DNA of 11,653 bases from the NCBI GenBank assembly GCA_003242525.1, contig QGUU01000038.1:1-11653 (forward strand). The letters run 5' to 3'. Positions 6,280 to 11,653 of this stretch are shown piece after piece. Made by a program: the position numbers and the translations under genes. The number at the start of each line of letters is the position of its first letter. The first letter of the stretch is position 1. The notes below the pieces were generated by a model. It saw only the letters and a list, made by a program, of their open reading frames with translations. It did not search any database and was not told the DNA's origin. The DNA is from Pseudomonadota bacterium. GTDB lineage: Bacteria; Pseudomonadota; Alphaproteobacteria; Rhizobiales; Rhizobiaceae.

Positions 6280-6540
6280 CTACTGCGCGGCCGGGCCGGC
6301 GCGTTCCTCAGCCAGCACGCGAAGGTGTTTGGTCGGGTCGCCGCCGAATGACGAGGCAAGGTAAAGATCGAGCCGGGTCAATCCGATATCCGCAAGTTCG
6401 GCATCCGAAAACTCTTCGAGTTGGCGGAAGGCCGCACGGTTCCTCCATCCGTGCCAGTAGGTTGCAACGGCGTCTCCGAGACGCGTCATCAGGCCGGCTA
6501 AGCCCGCGGCGCGGGTGATTGCAAAAACATGGCTGGACAT
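6280..6540 (-). CDS. DUF1127 small protein
   Basis: An 86-aa basic small protein. Residues 29-60 carry the DUF1127 core: YWHGWRNRAAFRQLEEFSDAELADIGL (28-54), with the hallmark W-R-N-R and 'LSD.ELADIGLTR' pattern. It has extensions on both sides, so it belongs to the longer type rather than the ~45-aa type. DUF1127 proteins are small, probably RNA-related regulators; CcaF1 of Rhodobacter, a DUF1127 protein, affects RNA turnover. I chose the ATG at 6540, because ATGGAG gives a GGAG 9 nt upstream; the ATG at 6555 is in frame but has no ribosome site. It is divergent from the LysR gene, which by analogy with VtlR probably controls it. Confidence 0.85.
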   Translation of the reverse strand: MSSHVFAITRAAGLAGLMTRLGDAVATYWHGWRNRAAFRQLEEFSDAELADIGLTRLDLYLASSFGGDPTKHLRVLAEERAGPAAQ

Positions 6541-6646
6541 GGTCGTGTTCTCCATCGTCGTGCGCAGTGGTTCACTGCCACGGGGAGGTCGCGGCAGGTC
6601 GGTTCGCACGAATTCATCGGAACGATGCCAATATGATGCGGGGCAA

Positions 6647-9373: not shown

Positions 9374-9619
9374 TCAACCGTGCTTGCGGATATTCTCCTT
9401 GTCGGCCTCGACAGCCTCTTCGAGGCGAGCGGCAATCAGTTCCCGAATGTCGCCGACTTCTTCTTCAAGATCCTCGATCGGAATTCCCGCCTCGGCGGCC
9501 TTTGCAGCGCATTCTTCAGCCAGTGCTCTTGCCTGTTCGTCGATCCTGATCGAGCTGGCAGGGGCCTGGCACCTTTCGTCGATCCATTCCCGAAGGAACT
9601 CGATTGCGCTTTCGCTCAT
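9374..9619 (-). CDS. DUF768-like small acidic protein
   Basis: An 81-aa, acidic, mostly helical protein. The opening (SESAIEFLREWIDE) and the segment GIPIEDLEEEVGDIRELIAARLEEA (45-69) match the DUF768 small proteins abundant in Mesorhizobium and relatives; function unknown. It has no signal peptide or membrane segment. The start ATG at 9619 has only a weak ribosome site. A 7-bp hairpin (9627-9633 with 9653-9659, loop containing TTCGGT twice) stands directly before the start in the 5' leader. tRNA-His lies about 160 bp upstream on the same strand. It converges with xseA. Confidence 0.75.
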   Translation of the reverse strand: MSESAIEFLREWIDERCQAPASSIRIDEQARALAEECAAKAAEAGIPIEDLEEEVGDIRELIAARLEEAVEADKENIRKHG

Positions 9620-9781: not shown

Positions 9782-9858
9782 TGGTACCGTTGCCTGGGAT
9801 CGAACCAGGGACCTCCGGATCCACAATCCGGCGCTCTAACCAGCTGAGCTACAACGGC
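9782..9858 (-). tRNA. tRNA-His (GTG anticodon)
   Basis: A complete 77-nt cloverleaf with encoded CCA. Acceptor stem GCCGTTG/CAACGGT (G1-U72 wobble), D arm GCTC...GAGC, anticodon stem CCGGA/TCCGG with loop TTGTGGA (anticodon GTG), T arm CCTGG-TTCGATC-CCAGG. The discriminator base is A73 followed by CCA. The base before G1 is T, so the usual bacterial G-1:C73 pair is absent, as known for a clade of Alphaproteobacteria. Reading frames through this region on either strand are artefacts. The 162 bp between its 5' end and the next terminator hold no gene that I can support and no strong promoter match. Confidence 0.97.
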
Positions 9859-10020
9859 ACTTACGCCTGAGCCTTGGAGACGAAAATTCTTCGTTGGTCC
9901 ACGCTCCTTCGTTCGGCGAAGCGTCCTTACGAACAATCGGACTCTAATTCAAGACTTTTGGCAAAGCAAAGCAGGTCCCATTTAGGGCGGTCTGCTGTCC
10001 CCCGGAAACTGGCGGATAAG

Positions 10021-10050
10021 AAAAAGGCCGGCGGGAGCGGCCGGCCTTTT
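10021..10050 (-). terminator. Rho-independent terminator of the phasin/sRNA transcript
   Basis: A perfect 10-bp stem AAAGGCCGGC/GCCGGCCTTT (10023-10032 with 10040-10049) has a 7-nt loop and ends in a U-run in the minus direction (A-run 10021-10025). It also has a T-rich tract on the plus strand, so it could work both ways, although no plus-strand gene leads into it. Confidence 0.9.
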
Positions 10051-10130
10051 CCTTTTATCGGGCCAGTGGGAGGAGGAACTGGCCACTACCGGCAAACACA
10101 GGGAGGAGGAGCTGCCTGCCGGTAAACATA
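10021..10130 (-). ncRNA. Candidate trans-acting small RNA of the alpha-r14 / CcsR ('cuckoo') type, in the phasin 3' region
   Basis: Read on the minus strand, three hairpins follow the phasin stop codon. SL1: TACCGGCA (10124-10117) pairs perfectly with TGCCGGTA (10094-10087) around a 22-nt loop containing CUCCUCCUCCC. SL2: GGCCAGT (10084-10078) pairs perfectly with ACTGGCC (10067-10061), with the 10-nt loop UCCUCCUCCC. SL3 is the intrinsic terminator at 10021-10050. Two stem-loops showing anti-Shine-Dalgarno loops plus a terminator, in about 110 nt, is the architecture of alpha-r14/NfeR1 RNAs in rhizobia and CcsR RNAs in Rhodobacter, which pair with ribosome-binding sites of many mRNAs. I see no good -35/-10 pair directly upstream, so it may be processed from phasin mRNA or start inside the phasin gene. 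The 5' end is approximate and the family call is by structure, not by alignment. Confidence 0.75.
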
Positions 10131-10142
10131 TGATCGCGATCA
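10131..10142. repeat. 12-bp perfect palindrome over the phasin stop codon
   Basis: TGATCGCGATCA is identical on both strands. On the minus strand its first three bases are the phasin TGA stop codon, and it ends just before SL1 of the candidate small RNA. It may be a protein-binding site or an RNA hairpin or cleavage landmark; it may also be chance. Confidence 0.4.
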
Positions 10143-10598
10143 GGCGACCTTGAGTTCCTTGACAGCCTTCTCGAACGCACCCTTCAGCGGCCTGGAAAGG
10201 TCTTCGGCAGCCTTGGAGGCGACGACCTGAAAGTCCTTGGCCTGCTCGACAGCGGTCTCTACGCCCTTGCGCAGAAACGCGGTCTGAAGCTCGATGACTT
10301 CGGAGAAAGACTTGGCGCCGACCAGCGCTTCCCAATGGGCGAAGTTCGCCTCGGTGTTGGAACGCAGCGTCGCGATGGTCTTGAGCGAAAGGTCGCTCGA
10401 CACTGAACGGGCGGTTTCGAACGTCGCCTCGAGAGCCTTTTGGGCCTCCTCTGCGCCATCCTTCAGCTTGGCATAGGCTTCCTTGGATTGTTCCAGGCCC
10501 TTTTCGGTGAAAGCGCGGAACTGTTCGGCGGCCTTGGAGGCGTCGAAGCTCGGGAATTCAACCGTATCGGAGAACTCGCCAGTCTTTGTCTTGGACAT
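10140..10598 (-). CDS. Phasin (Phasin_2 family, PHB granule-associated)
   Basis: A 152-aa, mostly alpha-helical protein without membrane segments or signal peptide. Phasins coat polyhydroxybutyrate granules and set their number and size. Family signs: an N-terminal polar stretch followed by FRAFTEKGLEQSKEAYAKLK (27-46), an Ala-rich amphipathic region (49-70), the segment NTEANFAHWEALVGAKSFSEVIELQ (81-105), and a Lys-rich C-terminus (AFEKAVKELKVA). The start ATG at 10598 has AAAGGA 7 nt upstream; reading back to 10703 would add unconserved residues from the promoter region. It has a PhaR-like promoter upstream and the candidate anti-SD small RNA downstream in the same orientation. Phasin next to a CbrA-type kinase gene agrees with what I recall of the Sinorhizobium meliloti order. 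Confidence 0.92.
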   Translation of the reverse strand: MSKTKTGEFSDTVEFPSFDASKAAEQFRAFTEKGLEQSKEAYAKLKDGAEEAQKALEATFETARSVSSDLSLKTIATLRSNTEANFAHWEALVGAKSFSEVIELQTAFLRKGVETAVEQAKDFQVVASKAAEDLSRPLKGAFEKAVKELKVA

Positions 10599-10655
10599 GT
10601 CACATCCTTTCAGCTTGCGGCTGCGACGAAGAGCCGCCTCGTGACTTCTGGGGCC

Positions 10656-10702
10656 CATATAACGATGATTTTTGTGCAATGCAACATTTTTATTGCGCTG
10701 CA
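10656..10702 (-). promoter_or_regulatory. Phasin promoter with two TGC-N3-GCA repeats (PhaR-type operator)
   Basis: On the minus strand a -35 TTGCAT (10684-10679) and a -10 TATATG (10661-10656) are 17 bp apart, giving a 5' UTR of roughly 50 nt. Two TGC-N3-GCA repeats occur: TGCAATGCA at 10675-10683, overlapping the -35, and TGCGCTGCA at 10694-10702, with centres 19 bp apart (about two helical turns). The PHB regulator PhaR represses phasin genes through TGC-rich inverted repeats and is released by PHB, so this layout fits. Promoter strength is inferred from motif match only. Confidence 0.5.
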
Positions 10703-10759
10703 CCCAAAATGTCTTGATTTCCCGTTAACCAACGCCCGGGAAATAAGGGGCGGCCGGCG

Positions 10760-10774
10760 GGTCCACTGTGGACC
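10760..10774. repeat. 15-bp palindrome GGTCCAC-T-GTGGACC
   Basis: A perfect 7-bp inverted repeat with one central base lies between the divergent phasin and kinase-like genes, 20 bp from the exact CtrA box. It could be a dimeric regulator's operator. No U-tract follows, so it is not a terminator. Confidence 0.45.
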
Positions 10775-10793
10775 TTGGGAGCGAGTCCTTTTA

Positions 10794-10808
10794 TTAACAA
10801 AGCGTTAA
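10794..10808 (+). promoter_or_regulatory. CtrA box (TTAA-N7-TTAA)
   Basis: TTAA-CAAAGCG-TTAA matches the consensus of the cell-cycle master regulator CtrA exactly. It stands 32 bp before the ATG of the kinase-like gene and about 195 bp from the phasin start, so it most likely acts on the kinase-like gene. Confidence 0.6.
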
Positions 10809-10839
10809 TTGCAAAGCTCGCGAGGTTCCGGGCAAGCGC

Positions 10840-11653
10840 ATGTCGTCTGACTATTCCTACCTCGATGTAGCCGTGCTCGACCCGGTGAGGGAGCGCTTTG
10901 CCGCGGGCGATGCGCTGGTGATTCTTTCGTCGGACCTGGCGAATGCCCTGTGGGTGAACGGGCCGGGGGCGGCGCTGCTCGGCTATTCCGCCATAGAGGA
11001 AGCGCTTGGGACGGAGGATGTGCTTGCGCCGGTAGCCCGCCGGCAGATCATGGCGACGCCGGGCTTCCCGGAAATTGGCAGCGAACGTTCCCTCATGCTG
11101 CGGCTCACGGCGGGCCTTACAAGCCAGGCCGTTCTGGTGACAGCGAGCACACTTTCAATGCCCGATGGCGAGAGGGCGATCCTGCTGGTCGCGCCAGCCC
11201 ATGCCGAAACGCCGTCCGATGGCACGCGCGCACTGGCGGGCTTCACCGAAGATGGGGGGTACGTTGCCTTCGTCGATGGCCAGGGAAGGCTGGAGGCAGC
11301 GTCCGAGGGCTTCGAGTCGCTCGACATTTCAACCGAAACGCTGGCGAAGCTGGTGGCGGAAGTGGCTGGCGAGCGCGATCGCCTGGTCAAGCGCCGCATC
11401 CAGGCTGGCGCACGATCCTTTCCTGCCGGCCTTGCCCGATTGGTAGACGACCCGCCGCGGCACCTGCTGGTGGTTGTCGACGATGGAGAGATTCGGCAAG
11501 CAGAATCGCCACCCGCGCCCAGCGTGACTCCGGCGGAAGAGAACGCCGCTGCCGTGGATATCGTAACGGATGAGAGGCAGGCGGAACCGCTGCCGGAAGA
11601 CGAACCGGTCAGGAAGATCGAGGAGCGTGCCGGGGCTGCCGAGAGGCAGGAGA
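10840..11653 (+). CDS. PAS-like N-terminal part of a probable CbrA/PdhS-type sensor histidine kinase (partial)
   Basis: The first 271 codons are present; the frame is open to the window edge. The start (DYSYLDVAVLDPVRERFAAG, then GDALVILSSDLANALWVNGPGAALLGY at 23-49) looks like the N-terminal PAS-like region of the CbrA/PdhS sensor kinases of Rhizobiales, which act on the DivK-CtrA cell-cycle pathway. A second sensory-like segment is at 139-215 (GYVAFVDGQGRLEAASEGF). From about 218 an acidic, Pro/Ala/Glu-rich linker begins. The kinase domain (His box and ATPase) would lie beyond the window, so kinase activity is inferred from the N-terminus and from the phasin neighbour. There is no signal peptide or membrane segment, so it is probably cytosolic. 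The ATG at 10840 has a weak ribosome site. Confidence 0.7.
   Translation, partial: MSSDYSYLDVAVLDPVRERFAAGDALVILSSDLANALWVNGPGAALLGYSAIEEALGTEDVLAPVARRQIMATPGFPEIGSERSLMLRLTAGLTSQAVLVTASTLSMPDGERAILLVAPAHAETPSDGTRALAGFTEDGGYVAFVDGQGRLEAASEGFESLDISTETLAKLVAEVAGERDRLVKRRIQAGARSFPAGLARLVDDPPRHLLVVVDDGEIRQAESPPAPSVTPAEENAAAVDIVTDERQAEPLPEDEPVRKIEERAGAAERQE

Follow-up and report, generated by a model that had tools for sequence, protein, structure and literature searches.

What kind of RNA lies directly behind the phasin gene of this bacterium, and what could tie it to that gene? The window analysed here is the whole stretch of 11,653 nucleotides, and the following features of its minus strand define the locus.

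10140 to 10598, minus strand: phasin (PHB granule protein), the putative host mRNA of the RNA; open reading frame, Pfam Phasin_2 PF09361, E 5e-16.
10126 to 10139, minus strand: 14-nt spacer UCGCGAUCAUAUGU from the phasin stop to hairpin 1.
10086 to 10125, minus strand: hairpin 1 with an anti-Shine-Dalgarno (aSD) loop; fold, and covariation on alignment A1.
10061 to 10084, minus strand: hairpin 2 with an aSD loop, 7 bp; fold, and covariation on alignment A1.
10020 to 10052, minus strand: hairpin 3, an intrinsic terminator with a T-run; fold, terminator scan and loop comparison in A1.
10021 to 10134, minus strand: the whole RNA element; model R1 (built here from phasin-linked RNAs), 96.7 bits, with the window in the training set.
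9782 to 9858, minus strand: downstream tRNA-His; a tRNA at such a position serves as an orthology mark for the locus across the family.

Folding of the minus strand behind the phasin stop codon (TGA, 10142-10140) gives three successive hairpins, with CCUCCUCCC in loops 1 and 2. The outer stem of hairpin 1 is a perfect 8-bp helix, and its MFE stem has 13 pairs including wobbles. CCTCCTCCC occupies 10101-10109 in the loop of hairpin 1 and 10068-10076 in that of hairpin 2, and the loop of hairpin 3, CGCTCCC (CGCUCCC in the RNA), is an eroded third aSD motif in the window. The MFE is −51.4 kcal/mol compared with −35.5 ± 3.2 kcal/mol for shuffled sequences (z = −4.97), and none of 200 shuffles equalled it. 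A sequence-only reading of this DNA had proposed two stem-loops of 8 and 7 bp with aSD loops and a terminator behind the phasin gene, which the fold bears out. The start that it gave, 16 nt past the stop codon, holds for the perfect 8-bp stem, but the MFE stem begins after 14 nt. The strong terminator that it described is present, and is itself the third hairpin of the family.

CCTCCTCCC occurs twice in the window, both times behind the phasin gene, compared with an expectation of 0.17; 5 of 200 shuffles reach two. The paired pattern CCTCCTCCC-N12-42-CCTCCTCC has a single occurrence in the source assembly (G000; 3.29 Mb, 689 contigs, 90.7% complete), which is at the phasin locus, and a control pattern has none. 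Matches to the Rfam models ar35, ylbH, Thr_leader and ctRNA were far under their gathering scores and overlapped the terminator stem; they were rejected, as was a plus-strand R1 match at 9968-10051 (19.3 bits).

The sequence-only reading had further assigned the element to an architecture shared by ar14/NfeR1 and CcsR. In the model search, the Rfam ar14 model (NfeR1, RF02344) matched 10019-10129 of the minus strand with 56.6 bits (E 2.3e-8), which supports the ar14 assignment but stays under the gathering score of 58.8, and the CcsR1 model gave only 18.5 bits against a cut-off of 65.3. The ar14 gathering score is exceeded by 9 of the 13 phasin-linked relatives tested. Like ar14/NfeR1 (cuckoo RNA family), the window RNA has three adjacent hairpins with CCUCCUCCC-type loops, two full and the third eroded, and its terminator is the third hairpin. 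It differs in its score, in the eroded loop 3, in the near absence of a gap to the host gene and in the lack of a recognisable promoter of its own. Neither the NfeR1-like sigma70 promoter CTTAGAC-N17-CTATAT nor its conserved upstream stretch was found in the end of the coding sequence, by eye or by a generic sigma70 scan, and the 14-nt gap leaves no room for them. An ar14 search of the incomplete genome G000 returned the phasin locus as its single location, compared with six copies in S. meliloti (PMC7143759; this and the other papers cited by PMC number are represented here by excerpts). In S. meliloti, NfeR1 ranks with the sRNAs of highest coverage (PMC7143759), and its motifs silence target mRNAs (PMC7143759, PMC10746234).

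CcsR1-4 of Rhodobacter sphaeroides are hairpin RNAs with aSD motifs that derive, via RNase E, from the 3′ UTR of the protein gene ccaF1 and share one terminator at the end (PMC8625941, PMC10253847). The window RNA has a similar place, immediately following a protein gene and preceding the first terminator, in the order 14-nt spacer, hairpins 1 and 2, and terminator. The host of CcsR1-4 is a DUF1127 RNA-binding protein with an RpoH-type promoter, whereas the host in the window is a phasin with PhaR-type boxes. A likeness also exists to MmgR of S. meliloti, a trans-acting sRNA connected with phasins and PHB (PMC7143759), but MmgR is a separate gene that acts on phasin levels, whereas the window RNA lies within the phasin transcript region itself. 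The window element is a predicted aSD RNA of the ar14/cuckoo kind located directly behind a phasin gene.

Of the 30 loci with the strongest ar14 copies in Mesorhizobium relatives (L002-L031), 29 have copies that start approximately 20-40 nt behind a DUF1127-like gene, many of them in tandem, which is the ccaF1-CcsR arrangement; the DUF1127-like call is a regular-expression test on the 30 strongest-scoring ar14 loci fetched, with one protein confirmed by Pfam. The window has a DUF1127 ORF of its own (6283-6609, minus strand; PF06568, E 6.2e-8), with no CCTCCTCCC nearby. R1 scores range from 75 to 124 bits for the named phasin-linked RNAs (the lowest being a truncated copy) and from 46 to 66 bits for the DUF1127-linked arrays, and divergent phasin-linked copies also score low (e.g. 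66.9, 50.2 and 41.5 bits). There is no clean split between the two groups by sequence alone; it is the host gene that separates them. The DUF1127 association is already published (PMC10253847). According to the same excerpt, Reinkensmeier and Giegerich (2015) labelled it ‘CIN1’, and that study may therefore list further neighbourhoods, perhaps phasin among them. No phasin-linked aSD RNA was recognised in listings and excerpts of open-licence literature, and the link may already be in print. No entry in the excerpted M. huakuii sRNA list (PMC5596092) could be tied to the phasin locus.

Conservation of the loops in related genomes had been set beforehand as a test of the proposal, and they are conserved. 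The same-genus (Mesorhizobium) set consists of the best phasins of 73 relatives, and 142 of 146 genomes (its own included) matched at E ≤ 1e-55. CTCCTCC follows the phasin gene in all 73 fetched loci, with three copies in 64, two in 7 and one in 2; one of the nine loci with fewer than three is cut by a contig end. The phasin of the window shares at most 78% identity with other phasins and has no close relative in the comparison set.

For the other genera, one and at times two phasins per genus were taken (95 loci, 81 genera); 27 of 109 sampled genera gave no phasin match at E ≤ 1e-8, and two regions chosen around xseA (L213 and L215) contain no phasin. At least one CTCCTCC lies within 200 nt of the phasin stop in 33 of the 81 genera, and 43 have none; the remaining 5 have only a shorter, CCTCCC-type match and are counted as partial, of which L170, L202 and L209 are probably chance matches. 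At the level of loci, 41 of 95 are positive (three motifs in 20, two in 12 and one in 9). A tRNA lies within 700 nt downstream in 90 of the 95 loci, which therefore look orthologous. Five loci (L139, L142, L146, L153 and L178) have shortened loop motifs at the orthologous place; these partial states are useful for studying gain or decay. In the window itself, a small ORF (9374-9619, minus strand) lies between xseA and tRNA-His; its DUF768 match stays below threshold (24.6 bits, cut-off 27.8).

The phasin link, which the synteny check was to examine, holds equally among named strains. From 240 named loci picked by phasin alone, the best 80 were kept; in 79 of these an R1 match lies directly behind the phasin gene, and the eightieth (L232) is cut nearby by a contig end. 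The positive loci include M. loti, M. huakuii, M. ciceri, M. amorphae, Chelativorans sp. ZYF759 and two Pseudaminobacter, and the motif occurs three times in 77 of the 79 RNAs and twice in 2. A match as such is expected because R1 was trained on relatives of these loci; the finding is the position, together with the choice of loci by phasin only.

The stems vary in sequence and keep their pairs. Alignment A1 holds 45 chosen RNAs (the window, 13 same-genus and 31 others), for which CTCCTCC was required and 10 positive loci were left out. Both sides have changed in 18 of 25 pairs, and 95.0% of the cells pair compared with 82.7% in shuffles, none of 500 of which reaches any of the five measures. 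When the partner strand is slid along, pairing falls to 36-59%. The tested structure came from A1 itself, which favours it. Because the rows needed CTCCTCC, part of the loop 1 invariance in A1 comes from how they were selected; the same-genus and named sets were chosen by phasin and thus show loop conservation free of this bias. Judging from these substitutions, the RNA structure is under selection. The fragmented assembly (689 contigs, 90.7% complete) might invite an explanation by chance hairpins or an assembly artefact, but this is hardly credible, being refuted by the same arrangement in 73/73 same-genus and 79/80 named loci together with the covariation. We regard the conserved element as almost certainly real.

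A single branch divides the tree of 109 phasins: one part holds all 55 motif-bearing rows, 5 partial rows and 7 motif-less rows, and the motif is absent from each of the 42 rows in the other part. The branch has a support of 93/86 and is not among the best-supported ones; the tree is midpoint-rooted for drawing, and the partial rows were labelled by hand (the five loci named above). The minimum number of changes on this tree is seven, which can be read as one gain followed by six losses or, alternatively, as several gains. A terminator-like hairpin lies downstream of the phasin gene in 33 of the 42 loci outside the RNA-bearing group, none of which has CTCCTCC within 200 nt, indicating that the terminator function is older.

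These plain terminators, and the single motif kept in 9 of 41 positive relatives, would also suit an element that only stabilises the 3′ end of the phasin mRNA and terminates it, with a loop motif that has no role in trans or that holds a protein or the 30S subunit in cis. However, a stabiliser needs no motif, and three CTCCTCC copies are present in 64 of the 73 phasin-chosen same-genus loci, with stems that vary yet keep their pairs. The same motif silences mRNAs in NfeR1 (PMC7143759), and the Shine-Dalgarno (SD) sequence of the phasin is poorly suited as a target in cis. We consider such a purely local role very unlikely.

The gap between stop codon and hairpins bears on how the RNA is made. 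In the 41 positive loci from other genera, the first motif lies 23-98 nt past the phasin stop (median 36), and 36 of them have it at no more than 38 nt. Since hairpin 1 starts almost at the stop codon, both in the window with its 14-nt spacer and in these loci, there is no room for an intergenic promoter, and the short distance in 36/41 makes it probable that cleavage of the phasin mRNA yields the RNA. The AU-rich half of the spacer UCGCGAUCAUAUGU is a possible RNase cleavage stretch. A strict consensus promoter scan of 9900-10850 reported no promoter, and inspection by eye of the final 72 nt of the coding sequence in 34 chosen positives showed no shared promoter motif. One bin of codons near the phasin 3′ end varies less than the others (0.24, n = 5), but its codons are mostly lysine. 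We hold a 3′-UTR origin of the RNA in the window with good confidence.

The alternative is an independent ar14 gene that, like nfeR1, has its own promoter, here in the 3′ end of the phasin coding sequence or, in core Mesorhizobium, in the long gap; the phasin gene would then be a mere neighbour. NfeR1 does have its own promoter and regulators (PMC10746234), and a long gap, which could hold a separate promoter, is found in 65 of the 73 same-genus loci. Among the 79 named loci, 69 have a gap of 64-74 nt, and 68 of these contain a TGC-N11-GCA dyad (e.g. L255 and L268), compared with 0.8 expected from shuffles; the dyad occurs in 58 of the 73 same-genus loci. Its spacing equals that of the putative NtrC motif at nfeR1 (PMC10746234). 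The core Mesorhizobium block allows three readings, namely an NtrC-like site, a promoter part and a weak hairpin of the terminator type. One Mesorhizobium subgroup (L098, L099, L100, L104 and L105) has a different gap with a sigma70-like CTTGTA-N17-CTAGCT, recognised by eye, which is perhaps a separately gained promoter. The window lacks the TGC-N11-GCA block, and its gap is short, as in L078, L087 and L091. We rejected the idea that it lost a promoter kept by its relatives; a short gap is common outside the genus, and the 64-74-nt block is a mark of core Mesorhizobium. The independent gene is made unlikely by the 14-nt gap of the window and the ≤38 nt in 36/41 positives, by the 34 coding-sequence ends that share no promoter motif by eye, and by the single host gene over dozens of genera, which is unexpected for a free neighbour.

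If the RNA comes from the phasin mRNA, the phasin promoter region becomes relevant. It contains the following features.

10672 to 10683, minus strand: PhaR-type box TGCATTGCACAA; perfect 12-mer match to the consensus TGCRNYGCASMA.
10694 to 10702, minus strand: second PhaR-type core TGCAGCGCA of 9 bases, short of the full 12-mer; its start lies 19 nt upstream of the first box.
10656 to 10684, minus strand: promoter-like TTGCAT-N17-TATATG, by eye; it overlaps the PhaR-type box, and the strict scan reports none.
10603 to 10610, minus strand: weak phasin SD AAAGGAUG; only AGGA can pair with CCUCCUCCC.

The consensus TGCRNYGCASMA is that of PhaR from Bradyrhizobium (PMC6201568), and the 12-mer TGCATTGCACAA in the window covers the −35-like hexamer. 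The consensus 12-mer occurs 61 times in the genome compared with 13 times for a reversed control, and is thus enriched rather than rare. In the 260 nt upstream of the phasin gene, at least one TGC-N3-GCA was found in all 34 chosen shorter-gap positives (two in 27), in all 68 other same-genus loci (two in 67) and in 42 of the 46 loci of a mostly RNA-less list (two in 34; L167-L212, in which L211 and L192 carry the motif). The shuffle expectation is 0.06 per region, and the paired boxes are spaced approximately 19 nt apart; L155 has a single box at −14, which is out of place. Because lineages without the RNA have the boxes as well, these speak for control of the phasin, which would extend to the RNA only through co-transcription.

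G000 has a gene for PhaR (PF07879, E 1.8e-29). A profile search did not find the PhaC_N domain in this 90.7% complete assembly; it was found in 35 of 36 relatives tested, the exception (G114) being also approximately 90% complete. The absence in G000 may reflect either an assembly gap or a true loss. The PhaR-type boxes offer a specific path for the proposed connection with PHB storage, while the undetected PhaC_N and the roughly equal frequency of boxes without the RNA count against a simple PHB story. We lean only slightly towards PhaR/PHB control of the RNA.

The weak SD of the phasin may have a bearing on the action of the RNA. Complementarity of at least 5 nt to the loop motif is present in the SD region of 10 of the 55 RNA-bearing rows and 35 of the 49 RNA-less rows (Fisher 4.5e-8, ignoring phylogeny). 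Within the RNA-bearing group, for which the sets were cleaned of mislisted loci, the stronger SD is found in 5 of 7 rows that lack the RNA, 6 of 43 that have it and 1 of 5 that are partial. The 5-nt comparison and a test of independent pairs were made with the five partial rows dropped; of six independent pairs, none changes in the same direction and 2.5 on average change in the opposite one (p 0.25), so that the pattern is confounded by descent. It is suggestive only that a weak SD might let the phasin escape its own RNA.

We regard as probable that the element is a cuckoo/ar14-type aSD RNA formed by the 3′ UTR of a PHB-controlled phasin mRNA, which would act by blocking SD sequences. Transcription would start at the phasin promoter with its two PhaR-type boxes. 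In other bacteria, PhaR leaves the DNA when PHB accumulates. A rise in PHB would accordingly release PhaR here and raise the level of phasin mRNA, with transcription ending at hairpin 3. An endonuclease, possibly RNase E by analogy with CcsR, would cut in or near the AU-rich spacer to give an RNA of approximately 110 nt. Its loops would pair with the purine-rich SD sequences of many mRNAs and lower their translation, and the phasin, with its AGGA-only SD, would escape. By analogy with CcsR1-4 and NfeR1, an RNA derived from the phasin mRNA that blocks ribosome-binding sites appears to be the most likely form of action.

A joint reading is offered more tentatively, and we would not yet give it even chances. 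The locus would be a translation brake coupled to carbon storage, in which PHB-sensing PhaR controls one transcript that yields both a granule coat protein and a multi-target aSD RNA, and in which the host mRNA gave up a strong SD. The RNA would have originated from an ordinary terminator between the phasin gene and tRNA-His, and core Mesorhizobium would later have gained the NtrC-like dyad block as a nitrogen input.

We know of no account of what sets the level of most ar14-type copies. Rhizobia commonly carry RNAs of this type, and the constant position of one copy behind the phasin gene in dozens of genera makes a link between carbon storage and broad post-transcriptional control directly testable. 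It adds phasin, besides DUF1127, as a second host gene for aSD RNAs. Plain terminators, partial loops and full loops at one orthologous spot offer a case of a terminator becoming a regulatory RNA. The arrangement points to a possible coupling, through a single transcript, of carbon storage with a broad brake on protein synthesis in these bacteria.
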